The notes under the pieces are model-generated. The model was not told the origin of the DNA. It worked only from the letters and a program-made list of their open reading frames with translations, and made no database searches. A stretch of 58,844 nucleotides of DNA, taken from the IMG/VR virus record IMGVR_UViG_3300031463_000546, positions 1 to 58,844 of that record; one strand, 5' to 3'. Both the position numbers and the translations under genes were made by a program. Below, piece after piece: positions 27,561 through 57,994 of the stretch. This DNA comes from a virus. Position 1 is the stretch's first letter, and each line of letters begins with the position of its first letter.

Positions 27561-27673
27561 CGGTGAAGTCCTCCTTCTCCGCAATGAACGCTCGGAAGGC
27601 GCGATGGAGTCAAGTCCGATGAGTCAGCAAATCGTGATGTGTGGAACGTGCGGCGAAGCAGCGGAGATGCGGC

Positions 27674-29224
27674 ATGTCGGATGATCTTCGCAAAGCCGCG
27701 GTGCAGATGCCCGAAGCGGATCGGCGGTTACTGGAAACGGTATTCGCCGATACCGTCGTCTGGGGGGAGACGGTGCTGCTCAATCGCGACGGATCACCCC
27801 GGCGCTATTGGGAACACCAGGTGAACGATCTGCGCTGCACCGCCCGCAACATCATCCATCTCGATGGCCGGGACGTGGGGAAGACCATTGTACTCTCCAC
27901 CGATGCGCTCTACTTCGCCACCACGACCGCAGGCGTGTCCGGGCTGATCGCCGCTCCCCATCAGGGACAGCTCGATACCATCATCGAGGAGATCGAGTAC
28001 CAGCTCGATGCCAGCCCGCTGCTGCGCTCGCATCTGGCCGTCAACGCCTTCGGCAAGCCGAAGATTCAGCGCAAGCCGTATTTCCGCGTGGAGTTCAAAA
28101 ACAACTCGGTGTTGTATTTTCGCCCGGCGGGCAATTATGGGGAAGCGTTCCGTTCGCTGCACGTCGAGCGCGTCTGGGTCGATGAAGGAGCCTGGCTCAC
28201 CGAATCGGCGTGGAAGGCGCTCCGGCAATGCTTGAAGGCCGGGGGACGCATGCGGATTTACTCGACCCCGAACGGCATCCGCACCAGCACCTATTACCGG
28301 CTGACCTTCTCGGATCAATTTACGCAGTTCCGCTGGCCCTCCTGGCTCAATCCCAATTGGACGACGGAGCGCGAACAGGAGCTGGTCGAGTTCTATGGTG
28401 GGCGCGATACTGCCGGCTGGCAGCACGAGGTCGCCGGCGAACACGGCAAACCCAGCTATGGCGCCTTCAATCAGGAACAGTTCGATGCCGCTTGCCAGGA
28501 GATTATCGAGTATCGCACCGTGCGCATCACCGGTGACGATCTGTCCGGCTGCCAGGACAATGAGCAGCTTTTCGATTTGCTGGAAGCGATGCTGGACCTG
28601 GTGCCGCAAGCCGGCGTGTTCTGGATCGGCGCCGACCTGGGGTATACCAACGACCCCACGGAGATCGTCGTGTTCCAGGATGCCTCCGGGGAGAAGCCGG
28701 TGGCCAGCCTGGTGCTCCGTATCCACTGTGAACACGTGGCTTATCCCATATTGTCTATGTTGGTCTCGCTCCTGGAGCGCTACTTCACGCCGGCGGGCAT
28801 CGGCATCGACAACGGCGGGAACGGCGGCGCGGTGGTGCAGGAACTGTTGACGCTGGACGCCTATCGTACGCTGAATCTCAGCGGTCGCCTGCGTGGGGTC
28901 GATTTCGGCGGGGTGACCACACTGCCCACCCCGGATGGGGGTGAAGTGCGCAAACGCACCAAGGAACTGATGACCTCCATCATCAACGGCATGCTCCAGC
29001 GCCGGGAGATTCGTTTCCCGCATGGCGATCTGGAACTGCAGGATCAATTCACCACCCATACCTATTCGATGACCAACAACGCGGTGGTCTACTCGAAAGG
29101 CAACGATCACATCATCGACGCGGTGCGCTGCGCCGTGCTGGTGCGGGAACTGGGACGACTCAACCTTGGCGAGACGCAGTCGGTCTGCGTCAGCCCATTG
29201 CTCACGGCTCCGATTTTCTATTGA
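27674..29224 (+). CDS. Terminase large subunit
   Basis: 516 aa from the ATG at 27674; a few upstream in-frame codons are possible. ATPase domain: Walker A variant GRDVGKT near residue 65 and Walker B VERVWVDEGAW near 165, with motif III IYSTPNG. Nuclease domain: FWIGADLGYTNDPTEIVVF (first Asp), GIGIDNGGNGGAVVQ and DHIIDAVRCA (last Asp). The enzyme packages DNA through the portal, which is encoded next. The portal ATG lies 11 bases after this stop. Confidence 0.93.
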   Translation: MSDDLRKAAVQMPEADRRLLETVFADTVVWGETVLLNRDGSPRRYWEHQVNDLRCTARNIIHLDGRDVGKTIVLSTDALYFATTTAGVSGLIAAPHQGQLDTIIEEIEYQLDASPLLRSHLAVNAFGKPKIQRKPYFRVEFKNNSVLYFRPAGNYGEAFRSLHVERVWVDEGAWLTESAWKALRQCLKAGGRMRIYSTPNGIRTSTYYRLTFSDQFTQFRWPSWLNPNWTTEREQELVEFYGGRDTAGWQHEVAGEHGKPSYGAFNQEQFDAACQEIIEYRTVRITGDDLSGCQDNEQLFDLLEAMLDLVPQAGVFWIGADLGYTNDPTEIVVFQDASGEKPVASLVLRIHCEHVAYPILSMLVSLLERYFTPAGIGIDNGGNGGAVVQELLTLDAYRTLNLSGRLRGVDFGGVTTLPTPDGGEVRKRTKELMTSIINGMLQRREIRFPHGDLELQDQFTTHTYSMTNNAVVYSKGNDHIIDAVRCAVLVRELGRLNLGETQSVCVSPLLTAPIFY

Positions 29225-29235
29225 CAAGGACACTC

Positions 29236-30708
29236 ATGGCCAAATCACGATACCGCACATCGCAGCAGACGACCGGCGCAGTGGCGCAGCCGTTGCCCCA
29301 CGCGAGCGCCGCCACCATCGACGGCTCAGCGTTCATCAGTGTCACGCCCACCGATCCGATCCCGGTCACCTGGGAAGAGCGCGCACGACGAGCGTGGACC
29401 TACTATATCGAGGAGCCACTGGTGAAGAACTGCGTCAACTCCTGGCGCTCCTTTGCCGTGGGCGACGAGATCAAGCTGGCCAGCGATGATGAGGTAGTGA
29501 AGGAGGCGGTGAACGAATTGCACGACCGGCTGGCGCTCTCCACCTTCGTCAAGGATATGATCCTGCAATTGCTGGTGAAAGGCGACGCGGTCGGCTTCAA
29601 ACGTTACCGCCAGGATGGGCGCGATGTCGAGGGGATCACCTGCGTCAATCCCACCTCGGTGAAAGTGAAGTATGCGCAAGGCACGCTGATGGAGATGCAA
29701 CAGTACCCGGAGGACGCGCCTGCCGCCGGCGACGGCCTGTCGCTGCCCGTCGAACAGGTGATCCATCTGCGCTGGGATGCGCCGCCGTTCTCTCCGCGAG
29801 GCAATAGCCTGGTGCTGCCCGCCTTCCAGTCCATCGAACTGCTGCGCGATTACCGCAAGGCCGAGCAGGCCATCGCCAAACGCTGGGCCACGCCATTCCG
29901 CCTCATCAAGGTCGGCGGGGCCTACAACCAGCGCGTGATTACCCCTGACCAGAAGATGCTTCAGGACATCCGCGACATGGTCAACAAGATGGACATGAAG
30001 TCGGGCCTGGTGGTGCCGTTCTACGTGGGGGTGGAGACGCATGGCGCCGAGGGAACCGTGCTCAATGTCGAGGAGAAGGTGAAGGAAGTCAAGGAGGACA
30101 TCATCGTCGCGCTGGGGTTGTCCCGCTCGCTGGTGACCGGCGATGGCCCGAATTATGCCACGGCGTCCGTCTCCATGCAGAAGATGCTGGTGATGATTCG
30201 TGAGATCAAACAAATCGCCCGGCAGCTCCTCGACTGGGTGGTGGATGACTGGCTCGCGCTCAGCGGCCATGAGGATGCCACCGTCCAGTATCTCTTCAAC
30301 GATCTCGATCCGAACGACGCGGTCGATATCAAGAAGCTGTTGCTCGAACTCTACGACCGCAAGCTCATCTCCCGCGCCAGCCTGCAGGTGAAGATGGAAC
30401 TGGACCCGGATGTCGAGGCGGCCAACCGCGCGCAGGAGAAGCCGGGCATCGACGTGCTGGACGAGAAGCAGGCGAAGCCTATCGTCGATATGGTCACGCT
30501 CGGTGTGCTCGACGTGGATGAAGCGCGGAGTTTTCTGGGGCTGGGGCCGAAGGCGACCACGCCGGAGACAGCCTCCGCGCGTGCTGTTGCCGATGACGTC
30601 ATCTGTGACGAGTGCCGGCATTTCGAGGACGCGGAAAATCGCTGCGCGGTGCAGCGGCAGGAGACCACCTTCGAGACGCGCGCCTGCCGGTTCTTCGACC
30701 GGAAGTAA
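29236..30708 (+). CDS. Portal protein
   Basis: 490 aa from the ATG at 29236 (AAGGA site); an upstream TTG is poorly placed. It fits phage portals: YIEEPLVKNCVNSWRSFAVGD, QLLVKGDAVGFKRY, EQVIHLRWDAPPFSPRGNSLVLPAFQSIELLRDYRKAEQAIAKRWA, LGLSRSLVTGDGPNYATASVSMQKM, then a helical C-terminus. The extreme C-terminus has four cysteines (CDECRHF, NRCAVQ, TRACRFF) that could form a zinc ribbon, unusual for a portal. It lies between terminase and the MuF-like gene, the standard order. Confidence 0.9.
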   Translation: MAKSRYRTSQQTTGAVAQPLPHASAATIDGSAFISVTPTDPIPVTWEERARRAWTYYIEEPLVKNCVNSWRSFAVGDEIKLASDDEVVKEAVNELHDRLALSTFVKDMILQLLVKGDAVGFKRYRQDGRDVEGITCVNPTSVKVKYAQGTLMEMQQYPEDAPAAGDGLSLPVEQVIHLRWDAPPFSPRGNSLVLPAFQSIELLRDYRKAEQAIAKRWATPFRLIKVGGAYNQRVITPDQKMLQDIRDMVNKMDMKSGLVVPFYVGVETHGAEGTVLNVEEKVKEVKEDIIVALGLSRSLVTGDGPNYATASVSMQKMLVMIREIKQIARQLLDWVVDDWLALSGHEDATVQYLFNDLDPNDAVDIKKLLLELYDRKLISRASLQVKMELDPDVEAANRAQEKPGIDVLDEKQAKPIVDMVTLGVLDVDEARSFLGLGPKATTPETASARAVADDVICDECRHFEDAENRCAVQRQETTFETRACRFFDRK

Positions 30709-30719
30709 GGGGCGAATCC

Positions 30720-33700
30720 ATGCCGGTCGAAACCACATCACAACACGACCTGATTCGCCAGGCCGTCGCGCAGAGCCTGCATGCGCGGAATCGCTATGTC
30801 GAACAGGTCGTGAACGATCTCACCGATGAGCTGGTTTCCGCACGCGAGCAGGTGGCCGCGGCGATCCTGCGCTACAAATCCCTCGGCTCTCTGCCGGACA
30901 ACAAGCTGGCAGGATTGAAGGGACTGGAACGGCTGGACACTGACATCAAAGGCATCATGACCCAGCTCAAGCGGTCACAGACCGTCCGTTGTCGCACGGA
31001 GGCGAAAGCCGCTTTCCGGCTCGGGGTGTACCACGGCATCGAGGAATTCGCCACCGCGCAACTACCGGTGTATCGTGACCTCACCGCTGATGGGCTGGAC
31101 AAGCTCACCACCAAAGCCTTCCAGATCGTCGATACCGATGCGCTGGACTTTCTGGCGAACTACACCACCACGCTGGTCGGTGACGTGAACCGGGAGACGA
31201 CCGATGGCATCATGCGGACCATCCGCGGCGCCATCGCCACCGGCAAAGGGGTGGATGACATCGTACGCGACCTCGGTGAGGTGGTGAAGGATCAGGAGTC
31301 CTTCCGCCATGCCGGGACAAAAGTGTTCAGCAAGGCGCAGTATCGCATGGAGGTGATTGCCCGCACCGAGGTGCTGCGCGCGCATAACCTGGGCAAACTC
31401 AAATTCCACCAGGCGGTCGGCATCCAGCAGTTGGAGTGGTTCACCATGGATGACGAGCGCATGTGCCCCATCTGCCGAGATCTGGACGGAAAGCCTTTTC
31501 CCATCGACGAATTCCCCGCGCAACCGGCGCATCCCCAATGCCGGTGCGGACATTATCCAGTCTGGCCGTTGGTGATCTGCGGACAAGGCGTGCTGGCAGC
31601 GAGTGCCGCTCCGAAGACCGGCGACGCCTGTATCCTGCCGCCGCAGAGTATCGAGGGGATGGCCGCGGCCCAGGCCGAGGAGCAGAAGACCCTCAAAGCG
31701 GCGTTCGAAGGTGGCGACCCCGCGAAGCTTGGTGCGCTCACCATGAAGCAGGTACAGACACTGGCCAAGCAGCAGGGAGTCGCCATCGCGCGCACCAAGG
31801 CAGATTTCCTCAAGCTGCTCGCGGATAAAGGGGTGGATGGCAGTGGGCTGTCGGGGAAGGCGCTGGAGGCGATGCTCAAGCAGTATGGCATCGGCGCGCT
31901 CCGCAGCAAGGATGAATTGGTCGCGCTGCTGGTGCAGAAACAAGCGGCGTTTATCCAGGCCCAACTCCAGGCGCAACTGTTGAAGGAGGCGGCGCAGTCG
32001 GCTACCGGGCTTGAGTCGATGACGGTGAAAGATCTGCAGGATCTGGCCGTAAAGAAGGGTCTCTCGCTGAACATGACCAAAGCCGACGTCATCGCCTTGC
32101 TCGATCAGTTGGAACCGGGCGTCGATCACAGTGGATTATCCGGGCAGGCACTAATCACTGCAAAGAAACAGTTCCATATCGGCCCACTCAAAAACAAGGC
32201 GCAGCTCATTAAGGCGCTTCAGCAGGTGGCCGGCAAGGAGATGGCACAGCAAGCTATACAGGATACCCAGCAGGCGGCAGTGACGGCAGCGACCAACGCG
32301 TTGAAAGAGGCTGCCGGAAAAGTCATACTCCCGGCGACTCCGAGCAATTTTGCACCGTTCCTTGAACAACTTGCTGCCGCTGAACAGGCGCTGGTCAACA
32401 GCCCCACCGTGCCGCAGGAGGTGATCCAGCAGATCGCCACCGAGCTCTCCGCGAAGAAGCTGGCGTTCCAGCAGCAGGTACTATCCCTTGGCGCTTCAGA
32501 CGTGAAAAAGATCGCGCAGGCGGCAAAAATTCCGAAATACCAGTGGGCGACCAAAGACGAACTCGTCACGCTGATGACCGAAACCTCGCCGGCGAAGCTC
32601 GATCCGGTGAAGCAATCCATCGCCGACAAATGGGCCAAGTGGAACACCCAGCAGCAGGCGCACAAGGTTGGGAAAGTCACCGCACAGGCGCAACTGGAAG
32701 CCCAGCAAGCCGCGGAAGCCGCCGCCGCCAAGGCGAAATCCCTCCTGCAGGACAAAGTCGATGCCGTGATGCATCCCGGCGCTGCCGGGGAATCGCTCGA
32801 TGCCTATGTCACGGCGATGCAGGAATTGAAATCAGCACTCGCGGCACAGGCCGGCATACTCTCGCCGGATGATCTGGCGCACTACTCCGGTGTCACGCAG
32901 GTGTTGCATGGCTGGGGCATCTCCCACTTACAGGAGATGAAAGTTGCCGATCTAAAGAAGCTGGCGCAGGCGAAGAAATTTCCGAATTGGGCCTTTGCCA
33001 ATAAGGACCAGCTTGTGACGCTGCTGTCGGCGTCGGATGAATCAGCCAAGCAGGATGTGTTGCAGGCGCTGGCCACCAAGGTTGCCGGGTATGGGAAAGC
33101 GACGCCTTCCCTGAAATCCGGTAAAGCGCTGGCGGCAGAGTTGGCCACACCCGATACGCCAACGATTCAAATTGGCACGTCCGCTTATGCTCAGGTGGAT
33201 GCGCAGTGGACGAATATCGCCGTCCATCCCGACCGCCATTTTACCTTCGCGCGTGACGCCAAAGATCTGGGTGGCGTTCATCCGAAGCAGATCTATCGTG
33301 ATCCGGATGGTCACGAATGGCTCTTTAAGCCCATTGAGAAGGCGTCGGATGGCTTCCTCGCTGATGCCGATGAGATGACATACCGTGTCTCTCGCCTGCT
33401 CGATCCCAACGCCATCGAGGTGCGCAAGGTGACGTTGAACGGGCAACGCGGCACCATCCAGCGCATGAAGTCAGGATTGCAGGCTCAGAAAAATTATGAC
33501 GGCATGGACCCGGCGTCGATCCCCCCGGAGGAACTGGCGCAACTGCTCCGGCACCATGTCGTGGACTGGTTGCTCTCCAATCATGATAGCCACAGCGCGA
33601 ATTTCCTGCGGCTCACCGATGGCTCGGTGGTGGCCATCGACCGCGCGCAGGCGTTCAAATACTTCGGACGGGATAAGCTGGACATCGGCTATAACCCGAA

Positions 33701-35804
33701 CAACCTGCCGGAGCATCCCACCACACTCTACAATGCCATCTTCGGGCAAGTGAAAAAGAAGAAGCTGATCGTCGATCCGATGCACACATTGGCGGCAATC
33801 GAACGCGTTGAAGCCATCGATGATGCCGAGTACCTGGCACTCTTACGGCCGTATGCCCAGGGACGACCGGAGGGGACCGAGGCGTTCCTGCAGGCGGCAT
33901 TGGAACGGAAGCATGCGCTCCGTGCCGACTTCGAAGGGTTCTATCAAGGCGTCCTGGGTGATAAAACCTTCAGCTTTGAGCAGTTGGTAAAGGCGCGGGC
34001 TAAGCAAACCACCACGGTACTCTCCAAAGAACTGGAAGACGCGGTGAGCACCATCGTGGAGAAAGAATCGTGGCAAGGGGTCGTGATTCCGTTCGACCGC
34101 GACATGGTGGAAGATGTGCAACTCCATCTGTTCACCGAGCGTGTGCCGGGGCGCCGTGGGAAGGTGGATCACCGCACCGTCTATCGGCTGAAGCTGCGTC
34201 CGGACAAACAGCAGCGTATGCTCGATGCCATCGAGATGGTTCAGAAAGGGGAGAGCGGTCTCCCGCGAGCTGGTGATCCCCTGATCGATGACGTGTATTA
34301 CACCCGCATCCTGAATGGCGTGCGCACGGTCAATGCCCATCTGGAACGCGGAGGGAAATTCAACACGTCAAAACTCGATCCGGCCCTTGCGTGTGAAGCG
34401 GAACTACGCACGCTGCTCAATGCTGACCGGATCGAAGTGCGGGACATGGCAGCGCATTACCTGAAGACCATCGATGAGTTGACCATCTTCGCGCGTGGCG
34501 GCGCCACCCCCTCGGGGCGCGTCTCGCAGTTCGAAATGTTCCGCGTGCTGCCCGGGCGCGTGAGTGTGCCAAAGATGACCGGGCCGACGTTCCGTGTAAC
34601 GGAAGGCATCGTGCAGTTCGACCAGCGAATGTGTGTCGAGGGGCATATCGAACTGAAAGCCACCGATAAACGTGTCGGACAACTGTTCAAAGGCAATCTG
34701 CCGAAAACCGGCAAGCAATACACGCTGGAGTATGACGACGGCACGAAGATTCGCGTGCGCCCCTTTGCTACTGACCATTACGACGAGCACTATATTCAGC
34801 CGGGGCAAAACTATTATGCCATCTCCGGCGATATCGAAATCATCGTGCCGGGGAAAGGCACGCCGGAACAGGTGGAGCAGACCTTTGAGAAGCTGCGTCA
34901 ACTCGGCCTGCCCGCGGAAGTGGCGCCCCCCGAATACCAGGAATACCTGTATCTGCACCAGGTGGCGGTCGCCAATAATTTGCATACTTCGGATGTCGGC
35001 TACCAGCAGATGATGCGCCAACTGGAGGCACGGAATGCGCCGATCAGTGAGCGGGTCGAGGAAATGGTGGCGTATTGGAACACACGCCTCAAGGTGAAGG
35101 ATGTGCGGAAGCTGGCCCGGTATAATCCTGCCGGCGAGTATCAGCTCGATACGAGCGAGCGGCGAAAGGGAAACATGGTCGGATATCGGCGCACCTTTCG
35201 TTTCGACCTCGATGTCGAGAAAGAGATGCGCGGGTATAACTTGATCCACCAGGTCGTCGGCGGTGCGGCGGATGAGTATGTGAAGATGGTCGACCTGGCG
35301 CTCTCGCATAACGGATCGCTGCTCTCCACCACGGAGAAGCTACGCATCGGAGTACCGCCGGGGGGCATGTCGCCGGAAGCGGATATGGGTTCCGGTGGGG
35401 CGAATTATGTCTTTACCCGCTGGCGACCCGATCCCCGCGGCGCCAAGTCGTTCCGCGAGATGGGCTTCTACTTGAGGCCCGGTGTGGTGCAGCGCACGGA
35501 CACCATCGTATATGCCACCGACCATTACGGACGGTGTTACGGGAAATTCGTCGAGACGCACCGGGAGACGTCGCCGGCGCGGTGGAAGCGCATTGCCGAG
35601 ACCAGCCGGAATAACGAAACGATCATCAAGCAGAACGTGACGCTGCTTGACAATCTCGACTGTATCGTGTTGGATTCAGCCAGCGCCAAGCAACAGATGA
35701 TCGCCATATTCCAGAAGCATGGCGTGACCGCGTTGCCGGACGGACGGAAGATCGAAGAGATCATTCACATCATCCCCGGCGCGAGGAGAGGATATACGGG
35801 ATGA
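30720..35804 (+). CDS. Giant MuF-like head protein with SAP-like repeats, kinase-like domain and unknown C-terminal domain
   Basis: 1,694 aa from the ATG at 30720, 11 bases after the portal stop. Residues about 100-280 are an SPP1-gp7/MuF head-morphogenesis domain (VIARTEVLRAHNLGKLKFH, DDERMCPICRDLDG, HPQCRCG). Residues about 335-790 hold four SAP-like helical repeats (LTMKQVQTLAKQQGV, MTVKDLQDLAVKKGL, ASDVKKIAQAAKI, MKVADLKKLAQAKKF). Residues about 815-1080 look like a HipA/PI3K-type kinase: EWLFKPIEK (ATP Lys), SNHDSHSANFLR (catalytic Asp and Asn) and VVAIDRAQAFK (metal Asp). Residues about 1500-1694 contain LLSTTEKLRIGVPPGG and GSGGANYVFTR, with a weak ADP-ribosyltransferase look. MuF proteins enter the capsid, so these domains may be delivered with the DNA (inference). 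Confidence 0.85.
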   Translation: MPVETTSQHDLIRQAVAQSLHARNRYVEQVVNDLTDELVSAREQVAAAILRYKSLGSLPDNKLAGLKGLERLDTDIKGIMTQLKRSQTVRCRTEAKAAFRLGVYHGIEEFATAQLPVYRDLTADGLDKLTTKAFQIVDTDALDFLANYTTTLVGDVNRETTDGIMRTIRGAIATGKGVDDIVRDLGEVVKDQESFRHAGTKVFSKAQYRMEVIARTEVLRAHNLGKLKFHQAVGIQQLEWFTMDDERMCPICRDLDGKPFPIDEFPAQPAHPQCRCGHYPVWPLVICGQGVLAASAAPKTGDACILPPQSIEGMAAAQAEEQKTLKAAFEGGDPAKLGALTMKQVQTLAKQQGVAIARTKADFLKLLADKGVDGSGLSGKALEAMLKQYGIGALRSKDELVALLVQKQAAFIQAQLQAQLLKEAAQSATGLESMTVKDLQDLAVKKGLSLNMTKADVIALLDQLEPGVDHSGLSGQALITAKKQFHIGPLKNKAQLIKALQQVAGKEMAQQAIQDTQQAAVTAATNALKEAAGKVILPATPSNFAPFLEQLAAAEQALVNSPTVPQEVIQQIATELSAKKLAFQQQVLSLGASDVKKIAQAAKIPKYQWATKDELVTLMTETSPAKLDPVKQSIADKWAKWNTQQQAHKVGKVTAQAQLEAQQAAEAAAAKAKSLLQDKVDAVMHPGAAGESLDAYVTAMQELKSALAAQAGILSPDDLAHYSGVTQVLHGWGISHLQEMKVADLKKLAQAKKFPNWAFANKDQLVTLLSASDESAKQDVLQALATKVAGYGKATPSLKSGKALAAELATPDTPTIQIGTSAYAQVDAQWTNIAVHPDRHFTFARDAKDLGGVHPKQIYRDPDGHEWLFKPIEKASDGFLADADEMTYRVSRLLDPNAIEVRKVTLNGQRGTIQRMKSGLQAQKNYDGMDPASIPPEELAQLLRHHVVDWLLSNHDSHSANFLRLTDGSVVAIDRAQAFKYFGRDKLDIGYNPNNLPEHPTTLYNAIFGQVKKKKLIVDPMHTLAAIERVEAIDDAEYLALLRPYAQGRPEGTEAFLQAALERKHALRADFEGFYQGVLGDKTFSFEQLVKARAKQTTTVLSKELEDAVSTIVEKESWQGVVIPFDRDMVEDVQLHLFTERVPGRRGKVDHRTVYRLKLRPDKQQRMLDAIEMVQKGESGLPRAGDPLIDDVYYTRILNGVRTVNAHLERGGKFNTSKLDPALACEAELRTLLNADRIEVRDMAAHYLKTIDELTIFARGGATPSGRVSQFEMFRVLPGRVSVPKMTGPTFRVTEGIVQFDQRMCVEGHIELKATDKRVGQLFKGNLPKTGKQYTLEYDDGTKIRVRPFATDHYDEHYIQPGQNYYAISGDIEIIVPGKGTPEQVEQTFEKLRQLGLPAEVAPPEYQEYLYLHQVAVANNLHTSDVGYQQMMRQLEARNAPISERVEEMVAYWNTRLKVKDVRKLARYNPAGEYQLDTSERRKGNMVGYRRTFRFDLDVEKEMRGYNLIHQVVGGAADEYVKMVDLALSHNGSLLSTTEKLRIGVPPGGMSPEADMGSGGANYVFTRWRPDPRGAKSFREMGFYLRPGVVQRTDTIVYATDHYGRCYGKFVETHRETSPARWKRIAETSRNNETIIKQNVTLLDNLDCIVLDSASAKQQMIAIFQKHGVTALPDGRKIEEIIHIIPGARRGYTG

Positions 35805-36888: not shown

Positions 36889-37350
36889 ATGAGTAGGGTA
36901 ACCGCTCTGAAGTTCACAACGCGAGGCTTCAGCGTTGTCACGCTCGAGGGGACACGAACAACCCCCACTTGTGTTACTAATAAGGCGTTACTCTATCCTA
37001 CTAGCCATGATACATCGAGACTGATGGACTGGTGTGAAACCCAATTCAATCTGCTAATTGACCAGGAAATCCCTGACAGAGTCGCTTATAAGTTGGTAAC
37101 CTCCCTATCAGCACACGACCAAATATTCCACGTCTACTACGCACTAGGCGTGCTCCACCTTGTTTGTCATAAAAAAGAATTGGAGATCCAGCACGTTACT
37201 CCGTCTAGCTTATCTGCCAGATGTTTCGGCCTTCAACAAGGCACTGACATGGACAGCTATATTGCCTCGTTATTCACTGGTCGCCCGTCTCCTTGGAATA
37301 GTGAGATTCGGGAAACAGCTTTAATTGCCTTGTCGAGGTTAGGACGATGA
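36889..37350 (+). CDS. RNase H/RuvC-fold-like small protein, partner of the kinase
   Basis: 153 aa from the ATG at 36889, 8 bases after AAGGAGG. The layout resembles a RuvC/DUF3010-type RNase H fold: first strands VTALKFTTRGFSVVTLEG, a strand PDRVAYKLV, then YYALGVLHLVCHKKELEIQHVTPSSLSARCFG, the GVL...P-x-x-(V/L)...G pattern of that fold. Expected acidic residues appear as Lys (ALKF, AYK), so it may be catalytically dead. The 3' end overlaps the kinase ATG (ATGA), showing joint translation. Codon use is much more A/T-rich than the flanking phage genes. Fold assignment is tentative. Confidence 0.7.
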   Translation: MSRVTALKFTTRGFSVVTLEGTRTTPTCVTNKALLYPTSHDTSRLMDWCETQFNLLIDQEIPDRVAYKLVTSLSAHDQIFHVYYALGVLHLVCHKKELEIQHVTPSSLSARCFGLQQGTDMDSYIASLFTGRPSPWNSEIRETALIALSRLGR

Positions 37351-38360
37351 CTTCAGGCTACACAGATATCGGAAAATACCAAAGAATTGAGAGACTAGGT
37401 GGTGGTTATTTCGGCGATGTTTATAGGGTATATGATCGCGCGTTAGATACCCAGAGAGCGCTTAAAGTAATCCCGGAAGATCCAAGCCATCCTCGGGATA
37501 TTGAATTATGGGAGGCACAGCTCCTAGAAGTATGCAAACACAAACACATCGTTGAAGTAAAGGAAGCAGATCTTGCAGACGTTGATGGAATTCCCAGCGT
37601 TATCATTGCATGCGAATTGATGCCAAGAGGATCTGTCGATGACCTGTTAGAGAATAACTTTATATCGGTATATTCGTCTGCTGATATTATTACTCAAGCA
37701 CTGTTCGGTTTAGCGCACTTACACGCAGCAGGAATCTTACACTGCGACTTAAAACCAGGGAATTTACTGATTGGCGATAGTGGAGTGATAAAATTATCTG
37801 ATTTCGGGTTGGCTGTTTCGTGTGGTGACACACCAGACCATTTTTACACTATGCATAAAGCTCCCGAATTAATTCTCGGTGAGGCTCCATCCGAACTGAC
37901 CGATGTTTATGCAGCCGGAGTCACCTTATTTCGCTTACTGAATGGTGTTTATGATATCGCAGCTATACTACCCACGAACTTTAATGAGGCAATTACTCGT
38001 GGCCGTTTCCCTGATAGGTCAGCTTACTTGCCACATATACCTGAAAGAGTAAAACGCATATGCAATCGAGCAATGCATATAGATAAGACAAAACGGTTTC
38101 AGAGTGCAGATGGGTTTCGCCAAGCACTCGAGGGACTCCCATGGAGTATTGACTGGCATAAGATCAGTGACACTGAATGGCATGGAATAAAATCCGACGT
38201 GCAATATACTATAGAGGTATTTGAAAAGCGTACTGGATGGTGCCTTGATTTCAAACGTAATAATAGACGAATTATTGATTATTGCGGATCAAGGTTACCG
38301 TCTGAGATGGACGCTGTTTCTGCTTTGTATGAGATGATACGCACTACAACATTGAGTTAG
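37347..38360 (+). CDS. Hanks-type Ser/Thr protein kinase
   Basis: 337 aa. Complete kinase core: Gly-rich loop LGGGYFGDV (18-25), ATP-binding Lys40 in ALKV, catalytic loop HCDLKPGNL (D134, N139), DFG at 152-154, APE at 172-174, and an Arg near residue 254 in the C-lobe. The catalytic loop has Cys in place of the Arg of HRD, so it is an RD-minus kinase. About 65 residues follow the kinase domain (WHGIKSDVQYTIEVFEKRTGWCLDFKRNNRRIIDY), an unrecognised domain that may sense a trigger. No membrane segment. AT-rich like its partner gene and unlike the phage genes. A defence or exclusion role is the main hypothesis. Confidence 0.9.
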   Translation: MTSGYTDIGKYQRIERLGGGYFGDVYRVYDRALDTQRALKVIPEDPSHPRDIELWEAQLLEVCKHKHIVEVKEADLADVDGIPSVIIACELMPRGSVDDLLENNFISVYSSADIITQALFGLAHLHAAGILHCDLKPGNLLIGDSGVIKLSDFGLAVSCGDTPDHFYTMHKAPELILGEAPSELTDVYAAGVTLFRLLNGVYDIAAILPTNFNEAITRGRFPDRSAYLPHIPERVKRICNRAMHIDKTKRFQSADGFRQALEGLPWSIDWHKISDTEWHGIKSDVQYTIEVFEKRTGWCLDFKRNNRRIIDYCGSRLPSEMDAVSALYEMIRTTTLS

Positions 38361-38730: not shown

Positions 38731-38796
38731 TATTTGCTGCCTCAAACGTATGAGGGTGCATGTAGGGGTGTTTACACCCCGCCAGAGATCACTCAC

Positions 38797-41700
38797 ATGC
38801 ACACCTTCGCTACCGACCTGGATCGTATAGTCTTCCTCCTGGAAGCCGATGCCGACCTGCATGGCTTCCTCGGCCTGACCGCCGAGGGAGCCACACAGGA
38901 GCCGTCGGTTGACATCACCACCGAGGAACTCCCCGAGGGTGAACGTCCGAAGTACATCACCAACTACATCGGGAGCAAGCAGAAACTCGTCGAGTGGATC
39001 TGGAAGCATACCCCGGATGGCATCGCCTCGGTGCTCGATGGGTTCAGCGGGTCGAGTGTGGTCGCCTATATGTACAAGACCAAGGGGCTGCGAGTGGTCG
39101 CCAATGACCGGCTGCGCTACGCCTATCACGCCGCGCGGGCCATCGTTGAGAATGATGACACCCGCATCAGCAGCGAGGAACTGAACACGCTCCTGCAGCC
39201 CAACGCGAAAGCCGCCACCTTTGTGCAGGACAACTTCAAAGGGTTGTTCTTCGCCAACGGCGTGCATGCGATCATCGACCAGGTGCGCGCCAATATCGAC
39301 GCGGTCTCCGGTTACAAAAAAGACATTGCCCTCTTCGCCCTCGGTAAAACGTGCATGTCCGGCAAGGGGGGATTCGGACACTTCTCCAGCAGCACCGATT
39401 ACGGCAAACGGCAGGATACCCCGGATGAATTCAAACAGCGCTTCGCCAAAAACGTCGCCCGCATCAACGCACTGGTATTCAGCAACGGCAAAGACTGCAA
39501 GGCGAACCAGAAAGACATCAACGCCCTGCTACCCGAGGTGAAGGTCGATCTCGCGTATTTCGATCCACCGTATGCTACCGAGTTCAGCACCACCAATTAC
39601 GAGAAATCCTACCATTTCGTCGAAGGGTTGATGAGCTACTGGGATGGGTTGGAGATCAAAGCTGATACAAAGACGCATCACTACGTCACCGATCACCAGA
39701 CGGTGACCAAGGCAAATGCCAATGCTTTCTTCGCTGAGTTCCTGGCCAATGCCAAGCAGATCCCGCATTGGCTGATTTCCTATCGGGATCATGCCTATCC
39801 GAACGAAACGGAGATGCGTCAGATCATCGCCGACACCGGCAAGGATGTCAGCCTGCGCTCGCACGACCATCATTATTCGATCTCCTCGCGGCATGGCGAT
39901 GCGTCCGATGCCAAGGAGTACCTGTTCATCTGTGCGCATGATACCGGCGCGAAGGCTAAGGCTGATGAAGAAGCGGGGGATTTCGAAACGTCCGGGGAGT
40001 TGGATCATCTGGAACTCCTTACCTGCATGGCGGGTAAAGACGATGACCCTGTGCGGGTCACCGGCTACATGGGCTCTAAGTACGTCATGCTTGGGTGGAT
40101 CGCCCGGCAAGTACCGAAGGAGGCGAAGTCCATTCTCGATGCCTTCAGTGGCGGGGCGAATGTCGCCTACCACTTCAAACGCCAGGGGCTGAAGGTGGTC
40201 GCCAACGACCTGCTGCGCTATCCCTATCACCTGGCGCGCGCGGTGGTCGAGAACAGCCATGAAACGCTCACCGATGACGATATCGAGCGCATCCTCGCGC
40301 CGAATGCCGATGCCGGGGATTTCATCGTGCGCACCTTCCACGGTTACTACTATTCGAAGCCGGTGCTGGCGTGGCTAGACCAGGTATGGGCGAACATCCA
40401 GAAACTGCCCGGCTACAAGAAAGACCTGGCGCTGGCGACCCTCGGCACCACGGTGAAGGCGAAATCCGCTTTCGGACAGTTCAACCGTTCGAAGAAAAAT
40501 TCGAAAGCCTCGCTGGATGCTGACGCTGGTCTGTCCAATTCCCAATTGACCAATGTGCCAGTCTCCGAGTTCGTGGCGACCTTTCGCAAAACCGCCAAAC
40601 GGCTCAACAGCCTGGTATTCGATAACAGCCAGGAGTGTAAAGCGACGAATCTCGATGCGGTCGAGGCCGTGCAGAAAGTTGGCGCCGATGTGCTCTATCT
40701 CGATCCGCCGTATGTCACCGAGTTCAATCGGAACGATTACGAGAACGATCTGCATTTCGTTGAAGGTTTGATGACCCGCTGGGCCGACAAGGAGATTCTC
40801 GACAACGGGCGTCGGAGCTATCCGTCGCGCACCACCTTCACACGGGAGTCGATGCAGGAGTTGATGGCGTCGCTGGCGCGCGAGTCGCGCGGCAAGTATG
40901 ACACGGTGCTCCTCTCCTATCGCGATAAAGCCTTCCCCGCTGAAGCGGACATCCAGCGCATCTTCGCCGAACACTACGGACTGGTACGCCGGAAAGCCAT
41001 GGAGGTGGAGTACAACATGGCGCGCACCTATGGCGCCGGCGGTCAATTCGCAAAAGAACTGCTCTTCGTCTCCTCGAAGCCGCGCCAGGCGGCGAAGACG
41101 GCGCAGGCCGATCACCGCCCGGCCAATTGCCATACCAGCGTGCCCGTGGACATTCATCTCTCGACGGAAGGCCAGGCAACAACACCCGGGTCGGGTGATC
41201 CACGTTTCACTTGCATCCTCTGCCGGGTCGGCACGAACAAGAACGGCGACCACTTCCTCGCTGAAGAGCTGGCTAGCCGCTACGTGACTGCCGTCAACAA
41301 AAAAGTCGACCTGCAGCACTCGCAGGATGTCACCGATATCGTCGGCGGCATTGTCGGCTCGGATTACATCGAAGATGACGCCGGGGGCCGGGTCGAGTGC
41401 GTCGGCGAGTTGTATGTCCAAGATGCGCCCAATGCGCAGTTGGCCTACCGGCTGATGAAGTCCGGCATCATCGCACAGGTCTCGATGGAGTGCGATTACA
41501 CCGAAGGCGAATGCTCGGTCTGCGGGAAGCGGGCGCAATCGAAAAACGATTACTGCCTGCATCTGCGTAAGTACAAAGGCGGCGACTTCCAGGGTCAGCC
41601 CGTCTATGAAATTCTGCATGGCGTGACGTTCACCGGTCTCGGTCTGCTCGACCGCAAAGGGGCCGACGAAAATGCACGCATCACCCAGGTGGCCTCGCAG

Positions 41701-42306
41701 GGGGCCGACATCCCGGAAGGAGACACAATGGACGAACCGATCCGCGACGCGGCTGACAGCGAGGCCGCCAAAAAATCCACGCCGCCCGCGGGAGGCGGCA
41801 CACCGCCGGCAGATCCTGCCGCACAACTCAAGGCGCTGGAGCAGGAGAACAAGCAACTGAAGCAACAGGTTGTTGATCTGCAAAAGCAAGTCGACGAACT
41901 GCTGGCCGCACAGAAAGCCGCCGCCAATCGTGCCAAAGCCCAGGCGCTGGTGCGCAAGCTGGAACGCCAGGGGCTGAAGTTCGGCACCGACGAGGAGAAG
42001 GATGTCGAAATCGGTCGGTTGGCTGGCCTCTCCGATGAGGCATTTGCCGCCAGCGAAGCCGCTTATGGTCGTATGGCACAGGCCATGCCCGGCAAAACGG
42101 ATGCCAGTGATAAGACCAGTCAGGCCGACAAAGCCGATTGTGCTTGCGACAAGAGTAAAGCCACCGAGCAGATCACCCCGCCGTTGAAAACGGATGCCGG
42201 GGTGCGCCCGCTGGACGTCGATGACCGGAATGACTCGCTGGAAGAGCAACTGAAACGTGGCTTCCAGCAAGCGTATGACGAGCGCATCGCCCGCGTACAG
42301 AGTTAA
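38797..42306 (+). CDS. Tandem Dam-type methyltransferase fused to capsid protease/scaffold
   Basis: 1,169 aa from the ATG at 38797; a TTG 63 bases upstream is the alternative and neither has a strong ribosome site. MTase 1: YIGSKQKL (about 54), VLDGFSGSS (SAM site, about 80), FDPPYATEF (about 253). MTase 2: YMGSKYVML (about 424), ILDAFSGGANVAY (about 446), LDPPYVTEF (about 633). Both keep the DPPY catalytic motif of N6-adenine methylases. From about residue 790 it is a prohead protease: VDLQHSQD (His), GIIAQVSMEC (Ser), CSVCG and YCLHLRKYKGG cysteines. A coiled-coil scaffold (about 1005-1050) ends it. Methylases tied to the head could modify packaged or incoming DNA (inference). Confidence 0.88.
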   Translation: MHTFATDLDRIVFLLEADADLHGFLGLTAEGATQEPSVDITTEELPEGERPKYITNYIGSKQKLVEWIWKHTPDGIASVLDGFSGSSVVAYMYKTKGLRVVANDRLRYAYHAARAIVENDDTRISSEELNTLLQPNAKAATFVQDNFKGLFFANGVHAIIDQVRANIDAVSGYKKDIALFALGKTCMSGKGGFGHFSSSTDYGKRQDTPDEFKQRFAKNVARINALVFSNGKDCKANQKDINALLPEVKVDLAYFDPPYATEFSTTNYEKSYHFVEGLMSYWDGLEIKADTKTHHYVTDHQTVTKANANAFFAEFLANAKQIPHWLISYRDHAYPNETEMRQIIADTGKDVSLRSHDHHYSISSRHGDASDAKEYLFICAHDTGAKAKADEEAGDFETSGELDHLELLTCMAGKDDDPVRVTGYMGSKYVMLGWIARQVPKEAKSILDAFSGGANVAYHFKRQGLKVVANDLLRYPYHLARAVVENSHETLTDDDIERILAPNADAGDFIVRTFHGYYYSKPVLAWLDQVWANIQKLPGYKKDLALATLGTTVKAKSAFGQFNRSKKNSKASLDADAGLSNSQLTNVPVSEFVATFRKTAKRLNSLVFDNSQECKATNLDAVEAVQKVGADVLYLDPPYVTEFNRNDYENDLHFVEGLMTRWADKEILDNGRRSYPSRTTFTRESMQELMASLARESRGKYDTVLLSYRDKAFPAEADIQRIFAEHYGLVRRKAMEVEYNMARTYGAGGQFAKELLFVSSKPRQAAKTAQADHRPANCHTSVPVDIHLSTEGQATTPGSGDPRFTCILCRVGTNKNGDHFLAEELASRYVTAVNKKVDLQHSQDVTDIVGGIVGSDYIEDDAGGRVECVGELYVQDAPNAQLAYRLMKSGIIAQVSMECDYTEGECSVCGKRAQSKNDYCLHLRKYKGGDFQGQPVYEILHGVTFTGLGLLDRKGADENARITQVASQGADIPEGDTMDEPIRDAADSEAAKKSTPPAGGGTPPADPAAQLKALEQENKQLKQQVVDLQKQVDELLAAQKAAANRAKAQALVRKLERQGLKFGTDEEKDVEIGRLAGLSDEAFAASEAAYGRMAQAMPGKTDASDKTSQADKADCACDKSKATEQITPPLKTDAGVRPLDVDDRNDSLEEQLKRGFQQAYDERIARVQS
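41728..42306 (+). CDS. Nested in-frame scaffold protein (internal start)
   Basis: A GGAAGGAG site at 41714-41721 followed by ATG at 41728 lies inside and in frame with the fusion gene. It would give a separate 192-aa protein: Ala/Pro-rich start (MDEPIRDAADSEAAKK), coiled coil (LKALEQENKQLKQQVVDLQKQVDELL), helical C-terminus. This mirrors the lambda C/Nu3 arrangement, where the scaffold is made in excess from an internal start of the protease gene. Confidence 0.55.
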   Translation: MDEPIRDAADSEAAKKSTPPAGGGTPPADPAAQLKALEQENKQLKQQVVDLQKQVDELLAAQKAAANRAKAQALVRKLERQGLKFGTDEEKDVEIGRLAGLSDEAFAASEAAYGRMAQAMPGKTDASDKTSQADKADCACDKSKATEQITPPLKTDAGVRPLDVDDRNDSLEEQLKRGFQQAYDERIARVQS

Positions 42307-42327: not shown

Positions 42328-42690
42328 ATGTCCTATATTACTCCGGTCCATCAGGGGCTGTGCTATGGCGACGGGACGCTGCAAGGTGCGGGCGCGCTCG
42401 GGCAGGTGGTGCGCCTGGTTGGCAACGACCGCTTCGCCGATAACACCGATCCCGCGCTAAAGAGCTTCGGCATGCTGGCCAAAGACTACAAGGACGGCGA
42501 CATGCCGGGCGTCTACTGCAACGGCGGCGTCTATGAGACCGATGTGTTCGACGGCACGATTCAGGCTGGTGACGATCTGAAGGTGTCGACAAACGGCAAG
42601 CTTTCCGCCGGCGTGCAACAAGGCGAACAGATCATCGCCCGCGCCATCGCCGTCGAGGGTGGTCTGCTGAAGTTCCGGCTGTGGCTGTAA
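42328..42690 (+). CDS. Head decoration / capsid cement protein (DUF2190-like)
   Basis: 120 aa. The small beta-rich sequence LCYGDGTLQGAGALGQVVRLVGNDRF, GVYETDVFDGTIQAGDDLKVSTNGKLSAGVQQGEQIIARAIAVEGG has the look of the capsid-cement/DUF2190 family, which caps the capsid lattice. Its place between protease/scaffold and major capsid genes is typical. AGAGGAGA precedes the ATG. Confidence 0.7.
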   Translation: MSYITPVHQGLCYGDGTLQGAGALGQVVRLVGNDRFADNTDPALKSFGMLAKDYKDGDMPGVYCNGGVYETDVFDGTIQAGDDLKVSTNGKLSAGVQQGEQIIARAIAVEGGLLKFRLWL

Positions 42691-42706
42691 AGGAGACTTG
42701 CCAGTA

Positions 42707-43825
42707 ATGAAAACGACCATGAATCAAGCGTATATGGCGAAAATGGCGCAGTTGATGAGCCAGGCGCTGGAATCCCCCGAGGGGATGCGCGCGCTGGCGG
42801 CCGCCATTGCCGCGCCTATCGAGCAGGAGATCGCCCGCAAGGAAATCTCATCGCTACTCCTCACCCAGCACACGTTGCCGAAGGGGGAGCGCCCGCTGTA
42901 TCAGAAGAAGCCGCGTGTAAAAGCCTACTGGATTTCCACCGAAGGGGAGATCCGCGAGCAGCAACTCGGGCAGGATGAGGTGGAATTCGGCACCAACCGC
43001 ATCCACTCGAACCCGATGGTGGATGTGTCGGTGCTGAAAAACGGCAATATCGGCACGTTGATGGATATCCAGCAGGCGGCCGCCGACGAGATCCGCAAGG
43101 AGATCGACAAGCGCACCATCAACGTGGTGTCCGCGGCGGTGCCCAGCGCCAACACCATCGAGGTGGCAGGCAGCGTCATCACCGAAGCGGCGCTCAACGA
43201 GGCCATTTCCATTCTGGAAGACCTGGAACTGTCGGCCAAATACATCGTCATGCGCGGGAGGCGCTTCAACGATCTGCGCGGTTGGGATCTCGATCCGCAG
43301 ACGCAAAACGAGTTGCGCACCAAGGGTGTGATCAAAAACTACGGCACCGGCGGCATCCTGCTCACCGCGTCTGCGGCGCTGAATGAAGTGCTCATTCTCC
43401 CGGAGGATGAAGTCGGCAAAATGCCGATCCGCGAGACGCTGAAAACCGAGGCTATCGACCGCAAAGAGCGGTTTAAAACCGGCTGGTTGGTCTGGTCGGA
43501 ACTCGGGCAAGGCATCCTGCGCCCGGATATCCTGGTGAAGATCAAGCTGCTCGGGGTGAACAATCCGCCCACCGTGGGGTTGAGCAATCCAGCCGCGGTG
43601 AACCTGCAGGTGTCTGTGGTGCCGACCGCCTCCGATGGCGATACCGGTTTGGCCAATCTGCTCATTCTCTGGGGTGATGGCGAGAAGACGGATGCCGTGA
43701 CCAGCGGACAAGTCACCCAGCACGACTATGCGTTGGCTGGAACGTATCGTATCACGCTGGTCGCCACCGACACCTCCGGGCAGACGGCCACCACGACGAA
43801 GATGGTCACCGTGACCGCTGGATAA
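42707..43825 (+). CDS. Major capsid protein with C-terminal PKD domain
   Basis: 372 aa from the ATG at 42707 (AAGGAGA about 11 bases upstream). Residues 1-280 suit an HK97-fold capsid protein: EVEFGTNRIHSNPMVDVSVLKNGNI, ADEIRKEIDKRTINVVSAAVP, AKYIVMRGRRFNDLRGW, GILLTASAALNEVLILPEDEVGKMPIRE, GWLVWSELGQGILRPDILVKI. Residues about 285-372 add a PKD Ig-like domain (LLILWGDGEKTDAV, HDYALAGTYRITLVATDTSGQ) of the same style as the two tail PKD proteins. It probably projects from the capsid and binds surfaces, as Ig-like domains on other phages are thought to do. Confidence 0.88.
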   Translation: MKTTMNQAYMAKMAQLMSQALESPEGMRALAAAIAAPIEQEIARKEISSLLLTQHTLPKGERPLYQKKPRVKAYWISTEGEIREQQLGQDEVEFGTNRIHSNPMVDVSVLKNGNIGTLMDIQQAAADEIRKEIDKRTINVVSAAVPSANTIEVAGSVITEAALNEAISILEDLELSAKYIVMRGRRFNDLRGWDLDPQTQNELRTKGVIKNYGTGGILLTASAALNEVLILPEDEVGKMPIRETLKTEAIDRKERFKTGWLVWSELGQGILRPDILVKIKLLGVNNPPTVGLSNPAAVNLQVSVVPTASDGDTGLANLLILWGDGEKTDAVTSGQVTQHDYALAGTYRITLVATDTSGQTATTTKMVTVTAG

Positions 43826-55870: not shown

Positions 55871-55956
55871 CCGGTCAGCACAGTCTCGAATTGTTTTGCG
55901 AAAATACGCACCACATGCCTTGACTTCATCGGCCAGTGTGAGTGATTCATTGGGTG

Positions 55957-55976
55957 TGCACACACGGATGTGTGCA
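55957..55976 (+). promoter_or_regulatory. Inverted repeat before the amidoligase operon
   Basis: TGCACACA (55957-55964), loop CGGA, TGTGTGCA (55969-55976), exact 8-base arms ending five bases before an AAAGGAGAG site at 55980-55988. It may be an operator or an mRNA hairpin controlling translation. A TTGACT element at 55920-55925 could be a -35, but no good -10 follows. Confidence 0.5.
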
Positions 55977-55995
55977 TATCGAAAGGAGAGACACA

Positions 55996-56961
55996 ATGGC
56001 CGTAACAATCAACGATATCCGGTTTGGCCTGGAAATTGAAACGGTGGGTCGCACCCGCCACGAGGTGGCGAAAGCGATCCAGAGCGTGGTCGGGGGAACG
56101 GTCACGCATGTCGGCGTCCCTGCATGCTATGATCCCCACCAGGTGATCGATGCCCGTGGGTTGGAGTGGAAGGTGGTGGCTGACAGCAGCCTGACCAATG
56201 TCCCCGCGGACTTACGCGCGGAGGTGGTCACCCCGATCCTGAGCTACGACGACATCCCCCTGCTGCAGGAGGTGGTGCGCGCCATCCGCCAGGCTGGTGC
56301 CCGCTGTGATGAAAAGTGTGGGCTGCACCTGCACTTGAGCCATCCCAATGTCACCGCGAAGGCGCTGGCCAATCTCGCGAAAACGATCTACAAGCAGGAA
56401 GAGCTGATTTACGCTGCACTCGGAGTGACCCAGGAGCGCATGGAACGGTACTGCCGACCGCTGAACGCCACTTTTATCGAGCGCATAACGCGCATCACCC
56501 CGAAAACCTTTGACCAGCTCAATCGCCAGTGGTACGGGAAATACAACCCGACCCCACAACGCTACGACAGCAGCCGCTACGCGATCCTGAACCTGAACGC
56601 CTTCTTCCTGCGCGGGGCCGTGGAGATGAGAGCCTACGCGGGCAGCCTCCACGCCGGCAAGGTGAAAGCCGCCATCCAGTTCGGCATGGCGCTCTTCGCC
56701 AAAGCCCTCAACACGCAGGCGGCGTCGGCGAAGAAACGCAAATACGATCCCGCATCGGCGAAATACGATTTCCGCGTGTTTCTGATCAGCGCCCTCAGCA
56801 TGAATGGTGACGAATTTAAAACCGCAAGGAAGCATCTGCTGACGCTTATGCCGGGAGACAGCGCATTCAAATATGGCAGGCCAACCGGCAAAGCCGGCAA
56901 GGCCAAAAAAACCGAAGAGACGACCGGGGCTGGAGCCGAGATGCTCCAGCCCTCGTGCTAA
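55996..56961 (+). CDS. Phage amidoligase (COOH-NH2 ligase, PF12224-like)
   Basis: 321 aa from the ATG at 55996 after AAAGGAGAG. Family features: FGLEIETVGRTRHEVAKAIQ at the N-terminus, LEWKVVADSSL, ELRAEVVTPIL-type segment (DLRAEVVTPILSYDDIPLLQEVVRAI), CGLHLHLSHPNVTAKALANLAK and NAFFLRGAVEMRAYAGSLHAGKV. These glutamine-synthetase-fold enzymes join an amine to a carboxylate using ATP. The gene heads an operon with DUF5049 and a class II glutamine amidotransferase. Substrate unknown (peptide, cell-wall or protein side chain). Confidence 0.9.
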   Translation: MAVTINDIRFGLEIETVGRTRHEVAKAIQSVVGGTVTHVGVPACYDPHQVIDARGLEWKVVADSSLTNVPADLRAEVVTPILSYDDIPLLQEVVRAIRQAGARCDEKCGLHLHLSHPNVTAKALANLAKTIYKQEELIYAALGVTQERMERYCRPLNATFIERITRITPKTFDQLNRQWYGKYNPTPQRYDSSRYAILNLNAFFLRGAVEMRAYAGSLHAGKVKAAIQFGMALFAKALNTQAASAKKRKYDPASAKYDFRVFLISALSMNGDEFKTARKHLLTLMPGDSAFKYGRPTGKAGKAKKTEETTGAGAEMLQPSC

Positions 56962-56975
56962 GAGAGGAGAGGATC

Positions 56976-57215
56976 ATGGAGAAAAAACTGATATTGATCA
57001 GCGCCGCTGTGTTCGAAGGACTGGAAGCCGTCCGGCAATGCGGCGCCACCAACATGCTCGACCGCCCGAGAGTGATCGAGATCGCCGAGATGATGGGTTA
57101 TGACGAGACCGCCGAATGGCTGCGCGAGAACAGGAATCTGTACGCCCAAGGCATCTTCCAGGGGTTTCGAGTTATCGAGGAAGGAGAAGCGCCATGTGCG
57201 GACTCTGCGGAGTGA
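56976..57215 (+). CDS. DUF5049 protein
   Basis: 79 aa from the ATG at 56976 after GAGGAGAGG. LISAAVFEGLEAVRQCGATNMLDRPRVIEIAEMMGYDETAEWLRENRNLYAQGIFQGF is the DUF5049 pattern: a small helical protein commonly encoded with phage amidoligases. No catalytic residues evident; probably an adaptor. The 3' end overlaps the amidotransferase gene by 22 bases. Confidence 0.88.
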   Translation: MEKKLILISAAVFEGLEAVRQCGATNMLDRPRVIEIAEMMGYDETAEWLRENRNLYAQGIFQGFRVIEEGEAPCADSAE

Positions 57216-57994
57216 TCATAGGTAGGCACTCAAAGCGTCGCGCGAGTGAGATGGATGCGCTGGCCGATACCTTCATCCGGCTATTGCTTTGCTCGGAACA
57301 CCGAGGTCAGCATGCCACCGGTGTCGCCTGGGTGAAACGTGATGGCGCCATGCAAGTAGCAAAAGAGCCACTGCCTGCACGGTCATTCATCCAAGGTGAG
57401 GCATTTATCGACTGGCTGCTTGGCATCGACCGGCAGGTAACCTACCTGATGGGACATACACGTTGGCCGTCCCGTGGGAGCGTAACGAATACAGCGGAAA
57501 ATCACCCTATCAGCACGCCCCCCATCCTGCTGACCCACAACGGCACGATCACCGATCATGCCCGGCATTTCCGCCGGCTCGGGTTACCCCGCACCACCCA
57601 GGTGGACAGTGAACTGCTTGCCCGCCTGGCACAACACAATACCGCTTATAATAGTATCGACGTCGAAGGCTTCTTGGCCGGTTTGACCCAGTTAGAGGGG
57701 AGTATGAGCGCCGCACTGGTCGCCACCAGCCGCCCGGATGAGATATTGCTGCTGAAAGGCAACATGCCGCTCGAAGTCCGTTTCCACAGACGAAGACATC
57801 TACTCATCTATGCGTCTGAGTCCCGTATCCTCGATATGGCTATTGATAACGAGACAGGGTGGGAAGAGATGCCAATAGCTCCAGGTGAAGCGCTGGCGAT
57901 CAGTACTACTGCGATATACGACCCATGCCGGCATCAGTTTACTTTTCAGGGAATGGCACGACAAGCAACATGGATGCGTTATACTGGAGCATAG
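57194..57994 (+). CDS. Class II glutamine amidotransferase
   Basis: 266 aa from the ATG at 57194, set so that Cys2 becomes the N-terminal nucleophile (MCGLCGV). Other Ntn-type motifs: LCSEHRGQHATGVAW, YLMGHTRWPSRG, LLTHNGTITDHARHF and RTTQVDSELLARLA. It lacks the synthetase or isomerase domain of GlmS/PurF, so the ammonia it frees from glutamine probably goes to a partner, here the amidoligase. Full-length single domain. Confidence 0.92.
   Translation: MCGLCGVIIGRHSKRRASEMDALADTFIRLLLCSEHRGQHATGVAWVKRDGAMQVAKEPLPARSFIQGEAFIDWLLGIDRQVTYLMGHTRWPSRGSVTNTAENHPISTPPILLTHNGTITDHARHFRRLGLPRTTQVDSELLARLAQHNTAYNSIDVEGFLAGLTQLEGSMSAALVATSRPDEILLLKGNMPLEVRFHRRRHLLIYASESRILDMAIDNETGWEEMPIAPGEALAISTTAIYDPCRHQFTFQGMARQATWMRYTGA

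Follow-up and report, generated by a model that had tools for sequence, protein, structure and literature searches.

The shorter product made from within the protease gene is the scaffold in both lambda C/Nu3 and herpesvirus UL26/UL26.5, the lambda C protease belonging to a different family. The T4 gp21 gene also has an internal start (gp21/gp21s) (PMC9026906). Packaged antirestriction functions and internal proteins processed by the prohead protease have precedents in P1 DarB/DarA and T4 IPI (PMC9024508, PMC12810830, PMC9026906); in P1, DarB is a head-associated N6-adenine methylase linked to antirestriction, and the prohead protease cleaves DarA (PMC9024508, PMC12810830). The part of Iyer et al. 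2017 (PMC5512222) drawn on here describes polyvalent proteins, probably virion-delivered, that carry an assemblin-like peptidase at their C-terminus.

In the window (the whole 58,844-nt stretch of viral DNA that was analysed), one gene joins two Dam-like methylases, a prohead protease and a scaffold. We consider it fairly probable that this is a head protease/scaffold gene with N-terminal methylases and two 3'-coterminal products, whose fusion product is co-assembled in the prohead, where the methylases would be freed and would protect the DNA from host restriction.

Architecture and distribution of the fusion gene

The gene and its domains are located as follows:

38797–42306, + strand: fusion gene MTase1-MTase2-protease-scaffold, 1169 aa (P0001), a single open frame
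38944–39936, + strand: methyltransferase domain 1 (MT1; D12/Dam fold), DPPY at 39562–39573
40045–41082, + strand: methyltransferase domain 2 (MT2), anciently diverged from domain 1, DPPY at 40702–40713
41179–41700, + strand: prohead protease domain, assemblin/S78 fold, with invariant His841 (41317–41319) and Ser896 (41482–41484)
41512–41562, + strand: CxxC...CxH zinc-knuckle-like insert (C906, C909, C920, H922), just past the catalytic Ser strand

The reading frame ending at 42306 starts at 38734 (TTG) or 38797 (ATG) and contains no stop. Along the 1169-aa protein, two D12 (Dam-fold) adenine methyltransferases are followed by an assemblin/S78-type prohead protease and a coiled-coil scaffold, and the structure model predicted disorder in the linkers at residues 383–417, 765–821 and 965–1006. 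The polypeptide combines at least two domains of disparate activity (two methylases, a protease and a scaffold), as polyvalent proteins do. The sequence-only reading had described the methylases as continuing in frame into the protease and scaffold; the frame is indeed uninterrupted, and the identity of the protease and scaffold and their location in the head cluster were supported. The alternative that it raised, an unseen stop or an assembly error joining separate genes, was excluded by the intact fusion in many independent contigs and genomes at 39–93% identity. A conserved N-terminal peptide of about 20 residues, MxLFATDxDRLAFLLE (38797–38856), is set off from MT1 by a variable linker and could be a targeting or pro-peptide. 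In L005 and L007, the inter-methylase linker contains an extra domain of about 100 aa (ETPNEIRYRVRDPEQF...WTMEKAQEW), which the window lacks.

Scans of viral contigs yielded 74 distinct loci with the protease-scaffold gene, and nearly all those keeping the 5' end carry one or two methylases fused in frame (at least 60 homologues have such a fusion). The architecture is widespread among uncultured phages of this group, with homologues in IMG/VR. The gene takes two forms, with one methylase (about 800 aa) or with two (1160–1390 aa); the pairing first noted thus holds for the 1169-aa protein and fails as a general rule, several lineages keeping only one. PHROG_27806, annotated only as 'DNA methyltransferase', is the single-methylase form, its 798 positions covering residues 417–1165 of the fusion protein with 1253 bits. 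In the phage and plasmid collections, matches were confined to the protease domain or to free-standing Dam-like enzymes, none extending over the full length. One homologue, L150, has the same gene order and a 416-aa protease-scaffold without a methylase; no MT1- or MT2-like methylase was found elsewhere in its 90-kb record, and it illustrates the carrier in a cargo-free state. Among the homologues in proper genomic context, methylase and protease-scaffold were never found as separate neighbouring genes, and the proposition that homologues always encode them apart is false. L068 was set aside as a chimera, an exact 300-nt repeat flanking its methylase piece, and L082 is likely a chimera as well; L079 is frame-split within the protease. 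Truncation at the contig edge accounts for the missing methylases at the ends of L006 and L144 and for the incomplete ones of L143 and others.

The double form was also present in 6 of 291 genomes of Armatimonadota, the phylum of the Armatimonadetes MAG (L007), phyla outside Armatimonadota having been searched only by short exact patterns. One of these six copies lies on a contig with genes encoding EF-G, RpoA and carbamoyl-phosphate synthase together with a serine recombinase, which identifies it as a prophage. A Type I restriction HsdR gene was located near the serine recombinase of this related prophage (L188 12495–15698; G246 C4).

Methyltransferase domains

Pfam MethyltransfD12 (PF02086) matched the fusion protein twice (E 1.2e-44 for the whole protein), at 38965–39684 and 40066–40824, both above the cut-off, whereas matches to TIGR00571 (dam) fell far below theirs. 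Motif I (DGFSGS and DAFSGG, respectively) and DPPY are found in both copies, as described for the SAM site and DPPY in the initial reading, and as in the D12 class of N6-adenine methyltransferases. DPPY is invariant in 67/67 MT1 and 37/37 MT2 domains of the family. Among close relatives, dN/dS was 0.04–0.10 for MT1 and 0.03–0.08 for MT2, about equal to the protease and below the scaffold. These values (0.03–0.10 overall) and the invariant DPPY rule out degenerate methylases and support two intact domains under strong purifying selection, which are predicted to be active enzymes. E. coli Dam was the best solved-structure match of the full-length model in Foldseek; searching solved structures by sequence with MT1 and with the protease gave no useful match.

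In the tree, MT1 and MT2 form two deep clades, which rules out a recent tandem duplication of one methylase; most of the single forms group with MT1, the placement of some branches being tentative. This topology suggests that the single-methylase forms arose more than once, more likely by repeated loss of MT2. The pattern of retention also bears on a role of the methylase domains in head assembly. They could be mainly structural or regulatory, through DNA binding near the portal, the timing of protease activation or control of head size, instead of protecting DNA; the position in the head cluster and the fusion to the scaffold would suit such a role, and DarA of P1 has head-size as well as Dar roles (PMC12810830). 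DPPY is, however, kept in every copy of both domains, as catalysis would require, some related lineages have MT2 and others lack it, which makes it dispensable for assembly, and L150 has a protease-scaffold without either methylase. We regard this explanation as improbable and favour protection of DNA by the methylases.

Prohead protease domain

The match to Peptidase_S78 (PF04586) was weak in the window (E 0.036, below the cut-off), and the same profile matched 26 of 44 homologues, with a best E of 7e-4. AlphaFold2 modelled the domain with confidence (pLDDT 86.6); among solved structures, Foldseek ranked herpesvirus assemblins highest (probability 0.96–1.00, E 0.004–0.02, TM-score 0.31–0.46), a likeness of the modelled domain that is at the level of the fold and not close. 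His841, Ser896 and the CxxC...CxH insert are invariant across the family, giving the domain the catalytic His/Ser as well as the fold of assemblins; the insert has weak zf-C2H2 matches in 38 of 44 members. No second S78 match was found by profile search in the 58,844-nt window.

Predicted nested scaffold start and translation signals

The first reading, accurate as to the domains, overlooked a conserved internal ribosome-binding site and start between protease and scaffold. The signals and the predicted product are as follows:

41717–41730, + strand: internal ribosome-binding site AAGGAG (41717–41722) and ATG (41728–41730)
41728–42306, + strand: 192-aa scaffold protein predicted from the nested start, sharing its 3' end with the fusion, with a coiled coil at 41815–41967 and a conserved C-terminal helix
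38756–38802, + strand: predicted RNA hairpin enclosing the translation start of the full-length product (weak ribosome-binding site and initiation codon)

The assignment of the last quarter of the protein as a scaffold is based on the coiled coil and the conserved C-terminal helix, as a scaffold would have; in the structure model, the coiled-coil helix occupies residues 1007–1057, after the protease, and the C-terminal helix residues 1148–1168. A strong Shine–Dalgarno (SD) sequence with an in-frame start was found in the protease-scaffold linker of 68 of 74 members, against 2–12 expected from synonymous-codon shuffles, the members being related by descent and the counts consequently non-independent. 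The rest of the gene has fewer sites of the same kind than expected (10 versus 15–34 in the same type of shuffles), and the other six members have a weaker SD and an ATG at a similar position. The internal site is kept while start codon, spacing and SD differ among lineages, and L150 has an internal start as well. Assuming the standard 16S 3' end, the internal SD was stronger than that of the full-length gene in 43 of 44 testable members, a comparison biased by taking the best of several codons on the internal side. The SD duplex of the full-length start reaches only −2.9 kcal/mol, and the hairpin covering it has a predicted energy of −22.9 kcal/mol (z −3.8 against 200 shuffles).

A conserved in-frame start before the scaffold is the arrangement of a nested protease/scaffold gene of the lambda C/Nu3 type. 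With a strong internal SD and a hairpin-covered full-length start, much scaffold and little fusion are predicted: a nested scaffold-only product resembling those of lambda C/Nu3 or herpes UL26/UL26.5, and a fusion that would be a minor component taken into the prohead. The original suggestion that the fusion places the methylases inside the prohead is strengthened by the scaffold tail that it would have in common with this nested product.

Alternatively, the methylases may do their work in the cytoplasm, whether or not they are encapsidated afterwards. On that account they would work in late infection, the fusion would serve only co-expression or dosage, and they would be lost through proteolysis or exclusion as the head matures or earlier. 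The usual substrate of phage methylases is replicating DNA, and a fusion that is a minor product, as the SD comparison and the hairpin suggest, would be compatible with this account. Co-expression, however, needs no fusion, the neighbours being separate genes and L150 encoding the protease-scaffold alone. Moreover, no recurrent internal start was found at the methylase-protease junction among family members and the fusion persists through 39–93% identity, which together indicate that methylase and protease are kept linked; the common scaffold tail should also draw the fusion into proheads. We judge cytoplasmic action unlikely and encapsidation of the fusion the better reading.

Genome neighbourhood

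The fusion gene lies among virion genes, another trait of genes for polyvalent proteins:

27641–30708, + strand: terminase large subunit (27641–29224) and portal (29221–30708), by profile matches
30612–35804, + strand: MuF minor head protein of the head cluster, whose long C-terminal extension contains a HipA_C-like kinase motif, by profile matches
42328–43825, + strand: directly downstream of the fusion, small head protein (42328–42690; weak PHROG head-scaffolding match) and major capsid protein (42698–43825) (PHROG_673, PHROG_2522)

The phage is contractile-tailed, carries a serine recombinase and is temperate. The MuF protein (1730 aa) contains repeats resembling Rho_N besides its HipA_C-like kinase motif, and is probably another virion-delivered multidomain protein. 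Between its gene and the fusion gene, a Ser/Thr protein kinase is encoded at 37347–38360, which was not seen in L007; it partially matched the methylation-associated defence kinase MAD6, far below the cut-off. The major capsid protein has a C-terminal PKD domain, absent from the 287–288-aa versions of L005, L007 and L150. Past the tail fibre genes, an amidoligase adjoins a glutamine amidotransferase-like gene (55942–57994). Close relatives bear an additional m5C methyltransferase-like gene (DLFSGIGG motif) downstream of the capsid genes (L003 11227–12624, L004 9630–11084, L006 4055–5374).

A temperate phage (serine recombinase; a relative is a prophage) whose MuF protein has a kinase-like extension suggestive of injected effectors might alternatively use packaged methylases on its host, to alter the lysogen epigenetically or through regulation or to control superinfection, and not to protect its own genome. 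No regulatory target is known, however, and the D12 methylases of mobile elements generally serve in DNA modification; we hold an action on the host to be slightly more improbable still than a structural role, and retain protection of phage DNA as the preferred explanation.

Proposed mechanism and significance

In the proposed mechanism, the strong internal start would yield abundant 192-aa scaffold, and the weaker, hairpin-occluded start a minor full-length methylase-methylase-protease-scaffold protein. Because both products would have the same coat-binding scaffold tail, a limited number of fusion copies would co-assemble with scaffold inside each prohead. During maturation, the protease would destroy the scaffold and probably cut its own flexible inter-domain linkers (the three disordered segments given above), leaving the methylases free in the head. 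These could then methylate phage DNA at packaging, in the virion or on ejection, protecting it from host restriction. Such protection, if any, appears to be incomplete, since GATC is not avoided in the genome and several 6-bp palindromes are strongly avoided across the whole window (GGATCC, 0 versus 22 expected; CAGCTG, 0 versus 14; CGATCG, 2 versus 42; CTCGAG, 4 versus 23).

More tentatively, the gene may represent an as yet unrecognised class of capsid-loading device in a widespread phage group, in which the protease/scaffold is the carrier of one or two methylases, nested translation sets the cargo:scaffold ratio and the protease frees the cargo in the head just before the DNA arrives, each virion thus being supplied with methylases for its own genome; the MT2 cargo would be gained or lost while the carrier stays. 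If this is right, head maturation and DNA protection, usually separate processes, are joined in one gene, and nature provides a self-cleaving route for loading enzymes into a phage head at a controlled copy number. Protection of DNA by methylases on entry, rather than during replication, would become testable, and the database family PHROG_27806 would receive a fuller annotation than 'DNA methyltransferase'.

Comparison with known systems

The closest known kinds are the virion methylase DarB of P1 and those polyvalent proteins whose C-terminal domain is an assemblin peptidase. That polyvalent proteins can carry such a peptidase C-terminally is already known from the part of PMC5512222 used here, and single-methylase members of PHROG_27806 exist; the initial remark that a direct fusion of methylases to the maturation protease was unknown was in that respect too strong, although the methylase-protease-scaffold arrangement is absent from that part of PMC5512222. 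No report of this architecture was found in the open-access literature, and none of the sources searched mentioned the phage's own protease-scaffold as carrier, the paired Dam-like cargo or the nested scaffold start. PHROG_27806 members resemble the fusion in having methylase, protease and scaffold, but with a single methylase, and the PHROG record lacks the double-methylase form, the identity of protease and scaffold, and the nested start.

As far as that portion of PMC5512222 describes them, polyvalent proteins are like the fusion in uniting different enzymatic domains in one polypeptide, in their phage head-gene neighbourhood and in an assemblin-fold peptidase placed C-terminal to the effectors and thought to be active in virion assembly. 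In the fusion, the peptidase is C-terminal to both methylases but is followed by the scaffold and so is not at the very C-terminus; by the same partial account, it differs from theirs in being the sole S78-type prohead protease detected in the window and in preceding a scaffold with a nested start. The methylases are D12/Dam-like, unlike the DarB-like MTase-SNF2 module of the polyvalent proteins described there, and Pfam detected no helicase domain in the fusion protein. P1 DarB is likewise a head-associated N6-adenine methylase with an antirestriction function (both predicted for the fusion), but it is a separate 250-kDa methylase-helicase with an N-terminal targeting signal, whereas the methylases described here are joined covalently to protease and scaffold. 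Finally, lambda C/Nu3, T4 gp21/gp21s and herpesvirus UL26/UL26.5 resemble the fusion gene as protease genes with a shorter product from within (predicted in our case), and the fusion gene differs in carrying DNA-modification enzymes, which none of the three is known to have.
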